Source: an uncultured Porphyromonadaceae bacterium
Lineage (GTDB): Bacteria; Bacteroidota; Bacteroidia; Bacteroidales; Muribaculaceae
NCBI GenBank assembly: GCA_947649495.1
Contig: CANSRU010000001.1
Coordinates: forward strand, 366,837-430,836
Reading direction: 5' to 3'
DNA: 64,000 nucleotides
The notes under the pieces are model-generated. The model made no database searches and was not told the origin of the DNA. It worked only from the letters and a program-made list of their open reading frames with translations. Below are positions 4,735 to 11,059 of this stretch, piece after piece. Both the position numbers and the translations under genes were made by a program. Numbering within the stretch: position 1 is the first letter of the stretch; each line of letters starts with the position of its first letter.

Positions 4735-5943
4735 TTAAGGCATATTCAAGAAGTCACGGAGAGAAAGCATTTTGATACCGTTTTGGGTGTTTGGCGTCGA
4801 ATCGCGTAATGTGACAACCAACTTTTCATAGTTGTCGCCGATTGATTCGAGATTGCCAAACTCGCGGTCAGCCGTAGCTTTATCATAGACATTTACCGCA
4901 ACTTGAATGTACTTACGCTCACCGTCTTTTTCAGCTACAAAATCAATTTCTTTGTTCCTTGAAAGTACACCGACCTTTATGTCGTATCCATCTACTGACA
5001 GTTTATTGTAAACGGCATTCTCAAGAATTGCTCCGGTATCCATTGGCCGATAGCCTATGATTGAATTCCGAATACCTATGTCTTCGAAATAATATTTTTC
5101 ACCTATCTCAAAGAATTTCTTTCCCTCGATATCCCATCGCCGCACTTTATTAGTGATATAGGCATCGCAAATATAATCGGCATACGCCTGAACACTGTTT
5201 ACAGTACCCGATACACGTTGCGATTTTAGATAGTCGGATATGCGTTTTGCCGTAAAAATCTGTCCGGTATTATCGGCAAAGAAAAGCAGCAATCTTTGCA
5301 GGAAATCATTGTTGCGGATGGAATGCCGGCTTACGATGTCTCTGTAAACCAAAGCGTCGGTAATTCCGGTGAGATATTCATTCCATGTCTCACGTTGGGG
5401 CAGATTCCTCAAATATGGCATTCCTCCAAATCGCAAATATAGGTCTATGCTTTCATCTGAATCTTCAAGTGAATGAAACAGAAGAAACTCATCGTAACAA
5501 AGAGGATGCACTCTTATCTCTATGCTACGTCCGGCAAGCCGCGAGGCTATTTCAGAAGACAACATTGATGAATTGCTTCCTGTTACATATATGTCGTTCC
5601 GTTCATCAAGACATAGCGAACGAATAACCTTGTCAAAGTCCTCAATCTCCTGAATTTCATCAATAAATATATAGTTCATGGATGAATCTGACAGATGCAT
5701 GACAATTTCCTCGTTTAAATCTGACGCGCTTTTTATATGAGAAAAAGCAAAATCTTCGAGATTGATGCGAATGAAATTAGCAGTCGGCGATGACTGACGG
5801 AGTTTCGCCTCAACGGAATTTAATATACAGCTCTTCCCAACGCGCCGTTGCCCCGTCAGCACCTTTATCACACCTTTGCCCTCATATCTTAAAATCTTAT
5901 CAAGATAATTTGGCCTCGGGATATAGCCTGTTGTTTTAATCAT
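4735..5943 (-). CDS. AAA-family ATPase with DUF4143-type C-terminal domain
   Basis: This is a 402-residue P-loop protein. Walker A is TGQRRVGKS near residue 35 and Walker B is YIFIDEIQE near residue 95. The downstream region has DIYVTGSNSSMLS (sensor-like) and the C-terminal half has features of the DUF4143 nuclease-like domain (KEIDFVAEKDGERKYIQVAV, an EID/QV restriction-like core). Such AAA_14/DUF4143 proteins are widespread in Bacteroidetes and usually stand alone; the cellular role is not known. The start at 5943 is preferred because a perfect -7 box lies only 16 nt upstream at 5959-5966, so the ATG at 5970 would precede the transcript start. Confidence 0.85.
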   Translation of the reverse strand: MIKTTGYIPRPNYLDKILRYEGKGVIKVLTGQRRVGKSCILNSVEAKLRQSSPTANFIRINLEDFAFSHIKSASDLNEEIVMHLSDSSMNYIFIDEIQEIEDFDKVIRSLCLDERNDIYVTGSNSSMLSSEIASRLAGRSIEIRVHPLCYDEFLLFHSLEDSDESIDLYLRFGGMPYLRNLPQRETWNEYLTGITDALVYRDIVSRHSIRNNDFLQRLLLFFADNTGQIFTAKRISDYLKSQRVSGTVNSVQAYADYICDAYITNKVRRWDIEGKKFFEIGEKYYFEDIGIRNSIIGYRPMDTGAILENAVYNKLSVDGYDIKVGVLSRNKEIDFVAEKDGERKYIQVAVNVYDKATADREFGNLESIGDNYEKLVVTLRDSTPNTQNGIKMLSLRDFLNMP

Positions 5944-5958
5944 ACTCAAAACTTTTTG

Positions 5959-5991
5959 CAAATATACCAACCATTTTTAATATATCACAAA
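5959..5991 (-). promoter_or_regulatory. Promoter of the AAA ATPase gene
   Basis: Minus-strand TTTG (5991-5988), 21-nt spacer and TATATTTG (5966-5959) match the Bacteroidetes consensus exactly. The implied leader is only about 10 nt. Confidence 0.8.
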
Positions 5992-6157: not shown

Positions 6158-6475
6158 TTATGTCTGATTTATCTGCCATTGCAGTTGCTTGGTTGAGCCA
6201 CTGCGGGATAGAATGCCCCGTGCTTTTAGGGATTTGATCACTCGGTCAATAGTGCGGGTGGATAAGCGGGTGGTGACAGCAAGTAGAGCTATGGAAATGC
6301 TGGGGTTGGCTATTATTGCTTTCAGCACAGCGGTTTCTTTCAGCGATAGACCTTCGGGAAGATTGTCTGAAACATCATTTTGAGGTTTCACAAACCCTGA
6401 AACATCATTTTGGTGTTTCTCACCTTGCCAACGGATATGAAGATAAATCCTACACCCTGACAACCAAAGCACCAA
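6158..6475 (-). pseudogene. Remnant of a RecG/AlbA-type HTH transcriptional regulator
   Basis: The 105-codon frame looks like the C-terminal tail of the large ATP-binding/HTH regulators common in Bacteroidetes. It has a low-complexity linker with two copies of QNDVSxF/QNDVSDN, coded by a 30-bp direct repeat at 6367-6424. A winged-helix segment follows (LKETAVLKAIIAN, TRLSTRTIDRVIKSLKARGILSRSGS). The upstream part of the family, including the AlbA/Schlafen domain, is missing, and the first 25 residues resemble no normal N-terminus. I read it as a decayed fragment. A free-standing small HTH protein is possible but less likely. Confidence 0.5.
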
Positions 6476-6512: not shown

Positions 6513-6544
6513 ATTGCAAGGCTCACAATTTAGCATTAATTTTG
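6513..6544 (+). promoter_or_regulatory. Promoter of the structured leader RNA
   Basis: TTG at 6514-6516, a 20-nt spacer and TAATTTTG at 6537-6544 make a full-consensus Bacteroidetes promoter. Transcription should start near 6551, about 360 nt before the first downstream start codon, so the transcript has a very long untranslated leader. Confidence 0.7.
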
Positions 6545-6550
6545 CGACTG

Positions 6551-6860
6551 CATATCGTCTGCCGAAGTCCGGTAAGGGCCAGTGGGCGGGAGCATAAAAT
6601 ATTTGAAAGCGTTTACTTAGCGTTTTTCTTGGCTTTTCGGAATCTCGCAAATTCTAAAGTTTGAGTCAAGAAAGCAGCAATGGTGAATGTCTTGTGGTAT
6701 GATATACCTCTGTCTTGAACCAGCATTTGATTGCCGGTTCGTCACTACGTATCATACAGCGTGAGACTTCGGCATTGCTCTTTCTACTCAAACGGGCAAT
6801 GCGAGAGCCTCGAAAAGCGGGAAGAGCAAAGAGTACGGATTCTCACGTTTTCTTTTTTGT
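6551..6860 (+). ncRNA. Structured leader RNA or rod-like small RNA of unknown family
   Basis: This is the only gene-free stretch over 300 bases (6476-6913). From 6633 to 6817 it folds as one long interrupted rod. Pairings are 6633-6639 with 6811-6817, 6643-6648 with 6801-6806, 6659-6666 with 6786-6793, 6669-6674 with 6780-6785, 6677-6682 with 6773-6778, 6685-6692 with 6764-6770, 6697-6704 with 6750-6757, and an apical hairpin 6717-6721 with 6736-6740. An internal bubble separates the last two stems. A competing hairpin and a U-rich tract follow (see 6760-6860). It could be an attenuator leader of the surface operon or an independent 6S-like rod RNA. I do not recognise a named family with confidence. 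Confidence 0.6.
6760..6860 (+). terminator. Alternative terminator-like hairpin in the leader
   Basis: CGTGAGA (6760-6766) pairs perfectly with TCTCACG (6841-6847), and GCTCTT (6777-6782) with AAGAGC (6822-6827). The outer stem is followed at once by a T-rich run, ttttcttttttgtt. These pairings use bases that the long rod also needs, so the two folds exclude each other. Confidence 0.5.
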
Positions 6861-6913
6861 TATAATCCTACACAGGAGAGTCCGGTAGAGTCTAAATCAT
6901 CGCCAAGTATCAA

Positions 6914-7420
6914 ATGGTAAAAAAATCTATCGCACTTCTCGCCGGGATGGCTTTAGCAGGGATTACGATGTGCGTCTATGGTAACATAACCCATATCGTG
7001 GTTTCAGGGACATCGGGAGAGAAACAAAACTTTGAATTATCAAGGTATAATCGAATAACCTTCGGGAACACGACCATGAGCCTGAGTTCTTCCGAAAACC
7101 CCGGAAACATTGTGGCTGAATTGCCATATGCCATGTTCAATCACATCGAGTTTTCGGATGAAGTGCTGTCAAGTATCGAAGAAATCTTATCGCCGGACGC
7201 GTCGCTGATTTATATTCCGGATGAAAATGCACTGGAGATAACGGCCGATTTATCAGAACCGTTCACTGTATGGATTCTAAATTCATCCGGAGCCATTATG
7301 TCACGCCTGAAAACCATGCCGGGAGAGAAATTATATCTCAAATCTTATACCCCGGGAATGTATATCGCAGTCGCCACAGCCAATAAAATCCAATTGACAA
7401 AAAAATTTATAATAAAATAA
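6914..7420 (+). CDS. Secreted protein with C-terminal sorting domain
   Basis: The 168-residue product has a lysine-led signal peptide (MVKKSIALLAGMALAGITMCVYG) and a small N-terminal beta module (HIVVSG ... FELSRYNRITFG). The last 80 residues resemble a secretion/sorting domain (ALEITADLSEPFTVWILNSSG, then LYLKSYTPGMYIAVAT and a basic FIIK end). It resembles a sorting domain with almost no passenger. It ends 6 nt before the next gene and is surely co-transcribed with it, and both share a similar N-terminal module. No enzymatic motif is present; a role in assembly or export of its large neighbour is speculation. Confidence 0.7.
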   Translation: MVKKSIALLAGMALAGITMCVYGNITHIVVSGTSGEKQNFELSRYNRITFGNTTMSLSSSENPGNIVAELPYAMFNHIEFSDEVLSSIEEILSPDASLIYIPDENALEITADLSEPFTVWILNSSGAIMSRLKTMPGEKLYLKSYTPGMYIAVATANKIQLTKKFIIK

Positions 7421-7426
7421 GCTCTG

Positions 7427-10400
7427 ATGAAGAAACAAACATTTATCAAGTCTATAATACTTGTCCTGATTTGCGGATTCGCATCCGCCGCATTAGCTTC
7501 GACCGACAAAGTGCTCCAAATATTCAAGAATGGGACTGTCGTGGAGGAATACAACCTTGAAGACATTGATTATATAGAAATAAACGATGTTATGAGCGCT
7601 CCATCAGGAGTCCATGCAAATACTGAGAAGCAAGGCATCACGATTACATGGGATGAAATAGAGGGCGCTACATATGATGTGTACCGTTCATCTGACAACA
7701 GCAACTTCAGTCTGCTTGCGACCGATATTACCGAAACAACATATACAGATGTACACCCTATTGCCGGCGCAAATTATTATAAAGTCAAAGCTGTAATTGA
7801 TGGTGTGTCGACCGGATTCTCGTCTGTAGTGGCAAGCACATGGGACAACGTATCAGAATCGGGGAATGGATTCTATATAGGCATCAATGGATTTAACAAC
7901 CGGTTGTATTCATATCCTATAATGTTTCTCTCCGATGATGCTCGCACCGGATTTGATTCATTTATCGATGGCCTTACACTTCTGGATGGAACAAGGCTAT
8001 ATAATGTCGTGGGAAAATCGATAGATGATCTTCAAGCTGCCACTTATCCTGAAAATTTAAGCGAAGTGGCAATTGTGACATTCACGGATGGACTGGACCG
8101 AGGCTCTTTGGACTGGACCGATGATTTCATGACTCTTACAGAATATCTGACATCGTTAAACAATCGGCTGACAAATGAGTTTGTCTCAGGCCAGAAAATT
8201 TCATCATATTCTGTAGGAGTATGCGGCGACGATGCAAAATACAATATCGCATCCTTCAGGAATAACCTTCAGAAGTTGGCGACTTCATCGAACAACGTCT
8301 TTGAAGTCAACAATATGGCCGAGGTAAACGAAGCATTCATGAATATTGCCAACTTTCTTAGCGAAACCAAATATATACAGACATTTCAAATGAAAATATA
8401 TGGATTGTCGCACAACGAGAAATCTCGATATACATTTGACAATGTAACAAGCCACAATTCATCAAAACAATATATTGAGGGAACATTCAATAGAAAGGAC
8501 CGCACTCTTACAGATATAAAGTATGTTGGCCTTACTTCGTCATCAGGTTCCGTAGTCACCGGTGAATTTGTGGAAGACTCGGAAACCGGAAGAAAAATGT
8601 ACATATTTAAATTTGAGAATCTTAAATCTCTTGATGGCACAGCCATTCCTGTCGACAACGTTCAGCACTGGTTCACCGAGGAAGGATATTGGAACCACGA
8701 TGAGGAATTCACATTCGATCCAGGAGATATCGGACTTGAGAAGATTAAGCGGTCGGCAGCCATAATTCTCAACCTGGACTGTTCCAGTTCGCTTGGTGAA
8801 GACGACTTCAAGTCCTTAAAAGAAAGTGCGAAATTGTTTATCAAAACAATTGTGGATAACGCCGTTGACACAAAAGAGGTTGCATCGGTCAGTCTCGATA
8901 GAACAGCCGTGACATTGCCTGCAGGTGGCACATCCACACTCAAAGCTACTGTCCTGCCTGTTACTGCACTCAAGAAAGATGTTAAATGGACTTCAACTAA
9001 TCCCGAAGTAGCCTCTGTCGATGAATCCGGCAAGATTACAGCCCACAAGCCCGGTACCGCAACAATTGTAGTAACGACTGTCGACGGTGGATTTACAGCT
9101 ACCTGTCAGGTAACCGTAGTAACTTATGTGGCAAATATAACACTCAACCATGGCTCAATGCAACTTTACAACGGTGATAATGCCACACTTTCCGTATCCG
9201 TACTTCCGGAAAATGCAAACAACAAGGAGGTTTCTTTCAACAGTTCGAATCCATCTGTGGCAAGTGTGGATGAGTTGGGAAATATTTCGGCAAAAACAGC
9301 CGGAGTTGCAACCATCACCGTGTCAGCTAAAGATGGTTCGGGAAAGTCAGCTACTTGTCAGGTAACAGTCCTGCAGCATGTCGCATCCGTGACATTAAGC
9401 AACAGTACGCTTACATTAGGCGTAGGAACACAACAGCAATTGTCAGCAACAGTCAATCCGGCCAATGCTTCTGATAAACAAGTGACATGGAAAACCTCCA
9501 ACGAATCTGTCGCGACCGTTGACATAAATGGTCTTGTATCAGCCGTTGGTAAAGGAACAGCACAGATAACCGCCACATCGCGGGAAGGCAACAAAACGGC
9601 TGTATGCAACATAGAAGTCAGACAATATGTAAATAGCATTACGATGAACAGCTCAATGCAACTTTACAACGGTGATAATGCCACACTTTCCGTATCCGTA
9701 CTTCCGGAAAATGCAAACAACAAGGAGGTTTCTTTCAACAGTTCGAATCCATCTGTGGCAAGTGTGGATGAGTTGGGAAATATTTCGGCAAAAACAGCCG
9801 GAGTTGCAACCATCACCGTGTCAGCTAAAGATGGTTCGGGAAAGTCAGCTACTTGTCAGGTAACAGTCCTGCAGCATGTCGCATCCGTGACATTAAGCAA
9901 CAGTACGCTTACATTAGGCGTAGGAACACAACAGCAATTGTCAGCAACAGTCAATCCGGCCAATGCTTCTGATAAACAAGTGACATGGAAAACCTCCAAC
10001 GAATCTGTCGCGACCGTTGACATAAATGGTCTTGTATCAGCCGTTGGTAAAGGAACAGCACAGATAACCGCCACATCGCGGGAAGGCAACAAAGCAGCTG
10101 TATGCAACATAGAAGTCAGACAATATGTAAATAGCATTACAATGGACCGGGCATCAGCATCACTTAACATTGGCGTCACTTTGCAACTGAACGCCACTGT
10201 CAATCCAGCTGATGCAAATGAAAAATCACTGTTATGGTCAAGTTCAAATGCATCAGTCGCATCGGTTTCTCAAAATGGACTTGTAAATGGACTCGCTACC
10301 GGAACCACCGTTATAACAGCCACATCAAAAGATGGTACGGCTGTAAAAGGGTCATGCACCATCACCGTAAAACAACCGGTGTCAGCCATTAGTCTGAATA

Positions 10401-11059
10401 ATTCCGCGATGAATCTGAATTTAGGCTCATCAGGGACTTTGACAGTTACAGTATCCCCAAGTAACGCATCTAACAAAAATTTCTCCGTCCGCAGCTCTGA
10501 CACATCCATTGCCACTGTGACCAAAAGCGGACAATCGGTAATAATAAGTGCCATCAGATTAGGTACTTCCAAAATAACAGTAACCTCAGAAGATGGCTCG
10601 CACGAAGCCACGTGCGATGTCACAGTTTCACTATCGACAACCCCGATAAACCTGGCATTGGCCGTGAAAAAGAGTGGAAAAAGATATTATATACCTCTTT
10701 CATCATATACCGCATCACTCACCACCGGATACACCAAGGAAGGTATAACACTTAGCTCCGGCTCCACATCGTTCATTCTGGCGTTTAATAATGCAACAAG
10801 CTCCGCAAAGACATTCAGTGAAGCGAACGCACTCGGAACCTTACCGACCCAAACTCAAGCCAACGTGATAGTCCAGAATTGGTCTTCGCTAAATACCGCA
10901 CTACAGACCTATGGAGGAACATCATTGGGCTCCAACTCTTACTGGACAAGTACCGAGAGTTCAACTTCAAGATCAGCTTATAGCTACTCATCTTCAGGCG
11001 TTGGAAGCGTAGCTGCCCAGCGTACCTGCTATGTAAGGTGCATAGTTGCCACCTTATAA
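7427..11059 (+). CDS. VWA / Ig-like (Big_2) surface protein with lectin-like C-terminus
   Basis: The 1210 residues begin with a signal peptide (1-25) and a short beta module (KVLQIFKNGTVVEEYNLEDIDYIEI). A fibronectin-III-like domain (about 60-138) is followed by a von Willebrand A-like region (about 142-480) with FTDGLD at 219-224 and a MIDAS-type DCSSS at 451-455. Seven bacterial Ig-like group 2 domains start near 486, 568, 652, 734, 818, 901 and 985; domains 4-5 are a near-exact copy of 2-3. The last 145 residues (YYIPLSSYT ... SNSYWTSTES ... CYVRCIVATL) resemble DUF1566/FISUMP-type lectin-fold domains. It is probably an adhesin. A strong terminator follows at 11091. Confidence 0.8.
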   Translation: MKKQTFIKSIILVLICGFASAALASTDKVLQIFKNGTVVEEYNLEDIDYIEINDVMSAPSGVHANTEKQGITITWDEIEGATYDVYRSSDNSNFSLLATDITETTYTDVHPIAGANYYKVKAVIDGVSTGFSSVVASTWDNVSESGNGFYIGINGFNNRLYSYPIMFLSDDARTGFDSFIDGLTLLDGTRLYNVVGKSIDDLQAATYPENLSEVAIVTFTDGLDRGSLDWTDDFMTLTEYLTSLNNRLTNEFVSGQKISSYSVGVCGDDAKYNIASFRNNLQKLATSSNNVFEVNNMAEVNEAFMNIANFLSETKYIQTFQMKIYGLSHNEKSRYTFDNVTSHNSSKQYIEGTFNRKDRTLTDIKYVGLTSSSGSVVTGEFVEDSETGRKMYIFKFENLKSLDGTAIPVDNVQHWFTEEGYWNHDEEFTFDPGDIGLEKIKRSAAIILNLDCSSSLGEDDFKSLKESAKLFIKTIVDNAVDTKEVASVSLDRTAVTLPAGGTSTLKATVLPVTALKKDVKWTSTNPEVASVDESGKITAHKPGTATIVVTTVDGGFTATCQVTVVTYVANITLNHGSMQLYNGDNATLSVSVLPENANNKEVSFNSSNPSVASVDELGNISAKTAGVATITVSAKDGSGKSATCQVTVLQHVASVTLSNSTLTLGVGTQQQLSATVNPANASDKQVTWKTSNESVATVDINGLVSAVGKGTAQITATSREGNKTAVCNIEVRQYVNSITMNSSMQLYNGDNATLSVSVLPENANNKEVSFNSSNPSVASVDELGNISAKTAGVATITVSAKDGSGKSATCQVTVLQHVASVTLSNSTLTLGVGTQQQLSATVNPANASDKQVTWKTSNESVATVDINGLVSAVGKGTAQITATSREGNKAAVCNIEVRQYVNSITMDRASASLNIGVTLQLNATVNPADANEKSLLWSSSNASVASVSQNGLVNGLATGTTVITATSKDGTAVKGSCTITVKQPVSAISLNNSAMNLNLGSSGTLTVTVSPSNASNKNFSVRSSDTSIATVTKSGQSVIISAIRLGTSKITVTSEDGSHEATCDVTVSLSTTPINLALAVKKSGKRYYIPLSSYTASLTTGYTKEGITLSSGSTSFILAFNNATSSAKTFSEANALGTLPTQTQANVIVQNWSSLNTALQTYGGTSLGSNSYWTSTESSTSRSAYSYSSSGVGSVAAQRTCYVRCIVATL
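9153..10140 (+). repeat. 490-bp tandem duplication inside the Ig-like protein gene
   Basis: Copy 1 (9153-9642) and copy 2 (9651-10140) are offset by 498 bp (166 codons). By eye they differ only near 9597-9599 versus 10095-10097 (aacggctg versus agcagctg). Each copy encodes two Big_2 domains, and the reading frame is preserved. Confidence 0.9.

Follow-up and report, generated by a model that had tools for sequence, protein, structure and literature searches.

The window, the whole 64,000 nt stretch of Muribaculaceae DNA analysed here, contains upstream of an operon what is well supported, by comparison of homologues, as a conserved cis-acting leader RNA with two states. The comparison reveals two alternative folds that exclude one another, complementarity between two hairpin loops, a further pairing with bases downstream of the putative terminator, and a constant position at the head of genes. 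We consider it probable that the RNA is a cis-acting transcription attenuator of ~310 nt, with its own promoter and ending just before the operon. The best reading of the anatomy is that state B, comprising separate hairpins, would terminate transcription, and that state A, a single long rod, would allow the polymerase to read through. The existence of a homologous family, the H1 hairpin in state B, the complementary loops and the pairing past the terminator go beyond an earlier sequence-only reading of this DNA, which had proposed a rod that excludes a terminator. The features are itemized in Table 1.

Table 1. Elements of the leader RNA and adjoining genes, in window positions
Feature	Position	Strand	Composition	Basis
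Bacteroidales-type promoter, TTG-N20-TAATTTTG	6514..6544	+	TTG 6514-6516, 20 nt spacer, TAATTTTG 6537-6544	Sequence; TAnnTTTG upstream of homologues
5′ variable domain of leader, from putative transcript start	6551..6602	+		Mostly folds apart from rod; weakly conserved
Rod (state A)	6605..6852	+	6605-6612/6845-6852, 6622-6649/6800-6827, 6659-6665/6787-6793, 6677-6692/6764-6778; 59 pairs	Covariation
H1, 5′ hairpin of state B	6609..6690	+	6609-6616/6683-6690, 6626-6633/6665-6672, 6639-6642/6652-6655; 20 pairs	
H1 loop	6643..6649	+	UCUCGCA	Complementary to H3 loop
H2, apical hairpin, sequence-variable, predicted in both states	6697..6757	+		Constrained folds of window; variable alignment columns
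H3, putative terminator hairpin of state B	6759..6858	+	6759-6766/6841-6848, 6775-6784/6820-6829, 6795-6797/6807-6809; T-run 6848-6858; 20 pairs	
H3 loop, partner of H1 loop	6800..6806	+	UGCGAGA	Loop complementarity; rod helix 4
Terminator 3′ arm segment, partner of H3 5′ arm or post-terminator element	6840..6844	+	UUCUC	Partner-shuffle score; tree-null columns
Post-terminator element, partner of 6840-6844	6876..6880	+	GAGAG	Partner-shuffle score; supporting columns
First downstream gene, T9SS type A sorting domain	6914..7420	+	168 aa	NCBIfam TIGR04183, 29.1 bits, cut-off 23
Second downstream gene, Big_2 repeats	7427..11059	+	1210 aa	Pfam Big_2, 373 bits, 7 stretches

The promoter had been recognized from the sequence, and the comparison bears it out. 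An exact TAnnTTTG lies upstream of 65 of 110 homologues, against 3.1 expected from shuffling, at a distance from the rod of 71-76 nt (quartiles). The TTG located 20-26 nt further upstream is present in just 24 of these 65. The transcript is predicted to start near 6551 and to end near 6858. Its first segment, the 5′ variable domain, aligns poorly among homologues. The sorting domain of the first gene scores above the NCBIfam cut-off and below that of Pfam. The description of the downstream genes as a surface-protein operon thus holds in the window, where a T9SS sorting domain and Big_2 repeats are encoded, but across the family this is merely one of many types of downstream gene. Just upstream of the promoter, on the opposite strand, a short frame (6161-6475, -) has similarity to a winged-helix domain for DNA binding (Pfam HTH_24, just above cut-off), and is possibly a gene remnant. 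Beyond it lies an AAA_14/DUF4143 ATPase gene (4738-5970, -); similar ATPases were seen by eye near the copies of the RNA in L040 and L051.

The fold of state A is far more stable than expected from composition. The MFE of 6551-6913 has a z-score of -6.4, with none of 100 shuffled sequences as stable, and that of 6610-6862 a z-score of -7.8 (0 of 200 shuffles). The rod of stacked stems placed at 6633-6817 by the sequence-only reading is upheld. Among 35 aligned copies 92.9% of the cells of the rod are paired, and 34 of the 59 base pairs exhibit compensatory change. The covariation of the rod in these copies is 0.442, compared with 0.205 ± 0.007 in a shuffle test that is blind to kinship. Every slid register lowers the paired fraction to 36-50%, and helix 4 is fully paired in all 35 copies.

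Covariation was also measured against a tree-based null, in which substitutions were moved along a FastTree phylogeny of 110 copies using our own R-scape-like script, with 40 null alignments and a fitted tail. Eighteen column pairs are significant at E < 0.05, comprising 13 from three helices of the rod, one from the terminator, and four neighbouring or indirect pairs that are mostly non-standard. The sequence-only reading had held that covarying stems among homologues would support a real RNA; by this test three rod helices and one terminator pair do covary, as expected of a cis-acting structured leader. The basal stem of the rod exhibits no significant covariation in the tree-null test, and several of its pairs are near-invariant. 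Since this stem pairs with the T-run as well, the sequence leaves room for the rod itself to have a terminating role.

In state B the same RNA forms two hairpins, H1 and H3, in place of the rod. H1 is 93.0% paired, with nine of its 20 pairs compensated (counts that are blind to kinship). H3 corresponds to the competing hairpin that had been read as 6760-6766 paired with 6841-6847, extended by one base pair and with its inner stem defined. In H3 97.8% of the cells are paired and five of the 20 pairs are compensated, a count matched by 17 of 500 shuffles; its covariation is 0.200 compared with 0.147 ± 0.007 for shuffled alignments in a kinship-blind comparison. The terminator pair that is significant in the tree-null test is 6764-6843 (E = 0.015). 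The remainder of the terminator stem has no significant covariation in that test, and several of its pairs are near-invariant. The T-rich run that had been noted after the hairpin comprises ten T in eleven bases, and in the family consensus it lies directly 3′ to the H3 stem, as expected for an intrinsic terminator.

An ATG lies inside the H3 loop (6799), and ribosome-mediated attenuation via a leader peptide starting there has been considered. Of the 108 rows that are not gapped at this column 100 have the ATG, and in 92 of 110 rows a frame of eight or more codons follows, yet the lengths from the ATG to the terminator arm are divided 46/42/20 over the three phases, so that no reading frame is conserved. 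Moreover a stop codon precedes the arm in 22 of 100, and eight of 108 rows have no ATG. We regard such a peptide as scarcely credible.

As had been suggested from the sequence of the window, the two folds share bases. These lie in five segments (6764-6766, 6775-6778, 6820-6821, 6824-6827 and 6845-6848), so the two conserved folds are mutually exclusive, as expected for a transcription attenuator. Nucleotide 6764 is the clearest case. Its partner is 6692 in state A and 6843 in state B, and the triples observed at 6692/6764/6843 in 110 copies are CGC (39), UAU (36), UGC (20) and others (15). Both pairings are thus retained in the 95 copies carrying one of the first three triples, despite the changes of letter. 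The dual pairing of this nucleotide is the strongest single argument that selection has probably acted on both folds.

In 103 of 109 homologues the H1 loop is the perfect complement of the H3 loop. When partners are shuffled (without regard to kinship) the mean is 43.5 and the maximum 57. The loop pairs fall into ten sequence types, two of which account for 90 copies. In constrained folds of state B 89% of the bases of the H1 loop and 97% of those of the H3 loop are unpaired, and the seven base pairs that the loops can form are those of helix 4 of the rod. Copies within this one genome differ in their loop pair, with H1 loops such as UCUCGCA, CUUCGCA and UCUGGUA each accompanied by its own complement. 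The natural reading is that a loop–loop contact would start a strand exchange converting two hairpins into one rod, the order of these events being presumed. One copy in the same genome (L039:6831-6936, C8), ahead of a gene encoding 2160 aa, has an intact 3′ half, but its 5′ half is degenerate and its loops do not match; this copy may be locked in a single state.

A further pairing involves sequence downstream of the terminator. The five bases immediately ahead of the ACGY of the terminator (6840-6844 in the window) match an element located ~20-50 nt downstream. Over 106 loci the score with the native partner is 818, compared with 626 ± 22 for 1000 shuffles of partners (maximum 697; a kinship-blind test). 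The arm and the element change together, as in TTCCC/GGGAA, CTCTC/GAGAG, CACCC/GGGTG and ATCCC/GGGAT. The post-terminator columns are among the best partners in the tree-null test, yet none attains E < 0.05. If bases beyond the T-run take part in pairing, read-through transcripts would be of importance. The post-terminator element itself is transcribed too late to affect the first termination decision.

This pairing bears on a different kind of control, at the level of translation or mRNA stability, whereby the T-run would be merely part of a helix, and pairing ahead of the start codon would govern access of the ribosome. The element changes with its partner shortly upstream of the start codon, and the matched 5-mer falls within a predicted hairpin loop at 19 of 69 loci, compared with 9% of random positions; a hairpin around the element is only suggested by these predictions. 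However, the retention of the T-run right after the H3 stem in the family consensus argues against translational control, and the distance of >30 nt that separates the element from the start codon in the window is long for an ordinary Shine–Dalgarno sequence. We therefore give this explanation little credence.

Calculated energies favour the rod. In 98 of 106 copies its energy is no more than 1 kcal/mol above the minimum, and in 103 it is more stable than state B, which lies a median of 18 kcal/mol higher than the rod; four of the 110 copies had too few constraint pairs and were omitted. During transcription H1 is predicted to form first. In nascent transcripts of the window ending at 6692-6755, H1 is predicted to be fully formed, with a pairing probability of about 1.0. 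At equilibrium the rod is predicted to displace H1 as soon as transcription has reached 6806, ahead of synthesis of the terminator arm, and helix 4 of the rod is present in the minimum before the terminator arm in 106 of 110 copies. Since the rod wins at equilibrium before the terminator arm is made, termination requires H1 to outlast the equilibrium, whether by kinetics or by a bound factor, and for this reason the default direction of the switch is uncertain.

In the mechanism we propose for the attenuator, the 5′ part would fold as H1 during transcription. The 3′ part could fold as H3, running straight into the T-run and so leading to termination. Alternatively the loops of H1 and H3 would pair and the hairpins would swap strands to form the long rod, excluding the terminator so that transcription continues into the operon. 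Once the polymerase has passed, the element ahead of the start codon could pair with the freed terminator arm, and might lock the rod. The ratio of termination to read-through would be set by something that holds H1 closed or alters the time of the exchange. That H3 terminates and the rod antiterminates is inferred, as are the sequence of these steps and the presence of a signal from outside.

The position of the RNA in other loci is consistent with an attenuator. Among 120 hits, 113 loci were scorable, and in 111 of these the gene that follows has the same orientation, as for a cis-acting leader with its gene directly downstream, with a median distance to the next start codon of 62 nt (≤205 nt in 101 of 111); a simple gene caller was used, and related loci are among those counted. 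On the upstream side the neighbouring gene has the same orientation in 66 loci and the opposite one in 40. The conditional termination put forward in the sequence-only reading thus gains support from the homologues, in which both exclusive folds are conserved and compensated.

Over the element the RNA matches no Rfam family. A search of Rfam 15 at the gathering threshold gave no match in the window, and none over the element in ten loci containing relatives, in agreement with the lack of a confident match in the sequence-only reading; at a relaxed threshold the sole match was a weak one to mir-33 (E = 4.8). A literature search found no description of this RNA family among the matches listed. 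A DNA search revealed diverged copies in this genome and in others, 29 of 61 genomes including its own. For wider searches a covariance model of the 3′ half of the element, R1, was used. In its own genome this finds 11 copies at E < 1e-12, in addition to a weak match and an echo on the reverse strand. Matches at E ≤ 1e-3 occur in 52 of 295 sampled Bacteroidales genomes (its own included), and at E < 1e-10 in 26. In a phylum-wide sample the same genome alone was matched (1 of 296, at E ≤ 1e-5); at this level of sensitivity the family thus seems restricted to Bacteroidales. Copies have diverged to about 70% identity with the structure retained. Named isolates that carry the RNA (88-104 bits) include Paraprevotella xylaniphila YIT 11841, Xylanibacter rodentium PROD, Palleniella muris and Bacteroides sp. 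GM023. It also occurs on contigs of genomes labelled Firmicutes, Lachnospiraceae or Eubacteriales (L100, L117, L140 and L143), labels that likely reflect contamination of assembled bins.

The RNA can lie on accessory DNA, with a copy at 74.5 bits on the Phocaeicola dorei plasmid pBdorCL06T03-4 (L205:6142-6248). A similar short match is found on a plasmid of Phocaeicola vulgatus. No match was found to phage records by blastn. An exact-pattern search located five IMG/VR contigs, three with a strong copy, one with a weak match and one with none. Two copies on virus-labelled contigs (L228:531-639 and L229:11423-11530) lie ahead of multi-gene clusters that by eye resemble defence or accessory operons.

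A long rod-like fold is shared with 6S RNA, and the sequence-only reading had raised a 6S-like small RNA as an alternative. A free-standing RNA of this kind, or else a mobile inverted-repeat element, would account for the rod shape, the promoter and the T-run, and for the dispersal of copies, including the strong one on a plasmid and the three on virus-labelled contigs. Against this the element is restricted in its orientation and in its distance to the next gene, the sequence past the T-run co-varies with the terminator, and structure is kept at the divergence noted above. The element has no match to an Rfam model for 6S RNA, does not stand alone as a gene, is two-state, and is present in many copies per genome at a fixed position before genes. 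We find either form of this explanation very improbable.

The genes downstream of the RNA are varied. BspA-type leucine-rich repeats are the commonest, with LRR_5 in five of 101 first genes and 16 of 102 later genes. Others encode outer-membrane barrels, Big_2, DUF6175, T9SS sorting domains, BACON and restriction/modification enzymes, and there are ThsB-like and caspase-like hits, FHA and kinase domains, and Cys-rich peptides with radical-SAM genes (from the 25 commonest families per scan, with PADLOC names denoting similarity alone). At one locus a SAM-II riboswitch (L054:10234-10292) lies near a copy of the RNA, just upstream of what by eye is a methionine adenosyltransferase gene.

This variety is relevant to the possibility of a metabolite or second-messenger riboswitch, in which a conserved core would bind a small molecule and favour one fold. 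Two exclusive folds with a terminator are a usual output of a riboswitch, and a general signal would fit the 11 strong copies before different genes in one genome. However, the downstream genes have no evident common pathway. Furthermore, much of the conserved sequence is paired in one state or in the other, and an unsystematic look noted no separate conserved pocket. We consider a riboswitch unlikely.

The RNA might instead recruit a processive antitermination factor, in the way known for LoaP, RfaH or UpxY, which would cause the polymerase to ignore terminators along an accessory operon. Some of the downstream operons are long and related to surface or defence functions, and a gene of the UpxY family (above the NCBIfam cut-off) is the first in two operons of Paraprevotella-labelled loci (L132 and L144). 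But UpxY is not required, since it is absent above the cut-off from 10 of the 26 genomes with strong copies of the RNA (E < 1e-10). Its presence in the other 16, compared with 172 of 295 overall, amounts to no co-occurrence, and UpxY was rejected as an obligate partner. LoaP is reported to use a leader RNA hairpin together with a leader terminator, its element being a small UNCG hairpin (PMC12691694), compared with a rod of 250 nt here. The leaders of NusG-paralogue operons (the dfn leader of LoaP and the capsule leaders of UpxY in Bacteroides) are similar in placing a terminator-bearing RNA before accessory operons. On balance we judge processive antitermination to be improbable.

The attenuator we favour has its closest relatives among terminator/antiterminator leaders, which include riboswitch, T-box and protein-controlled attenuators. 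It shares with them its own promoter, a position before an operon, and two exclusive folds of which one has an intrinsic terminator. It differs in having no known ligand or factor, in the opposition of two loop-complementary hairpins to one long rod, in the extra partner past the terminator, and in the unrelated downstream genes. To our knowledge the two-hairpin-versus-rod arrangement is unusual among attenuators. In the antisense pairs CopA and CopT complementary hairpin loops can start strand exchange into a long duplex; the complementary loops are in common, whereas here both hairpins are within one molecule. Because the output logic is familiar we call the RNA a variant of the terminator/antiterminator leader, yet the element matches no Rfam family and no published description was found in our searches. 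HMP2_1881 is reported as a 108-bp candidate RNA, one of 13 finds that were all expressed, which is predominantly from Bacteroidetes and commonly near radical-SAM domains (Fremin and Bhatt 2021, PMC8040213). Judged by this description it might be a piece of the leader family.

Tentatively, intramolecular kissing-loop strand exchange could gate transcription, which would make this a new class of RNA. It would act as a general-purpose gate before accessory operons across Bacteroidales, including those for adhesins, restriction and other defence genes and modified peptides, with copy-specific loops causing each RNA to pair with itself. The two-partner base and the co-changing loop pairs would make the mechanism directly testable by a few compensatory changes. 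If true, a large and widespread regulatory RNA would be added to a major group of gut bacteria, and one common kind of control point would be predicted for many of their surface and defence genes.
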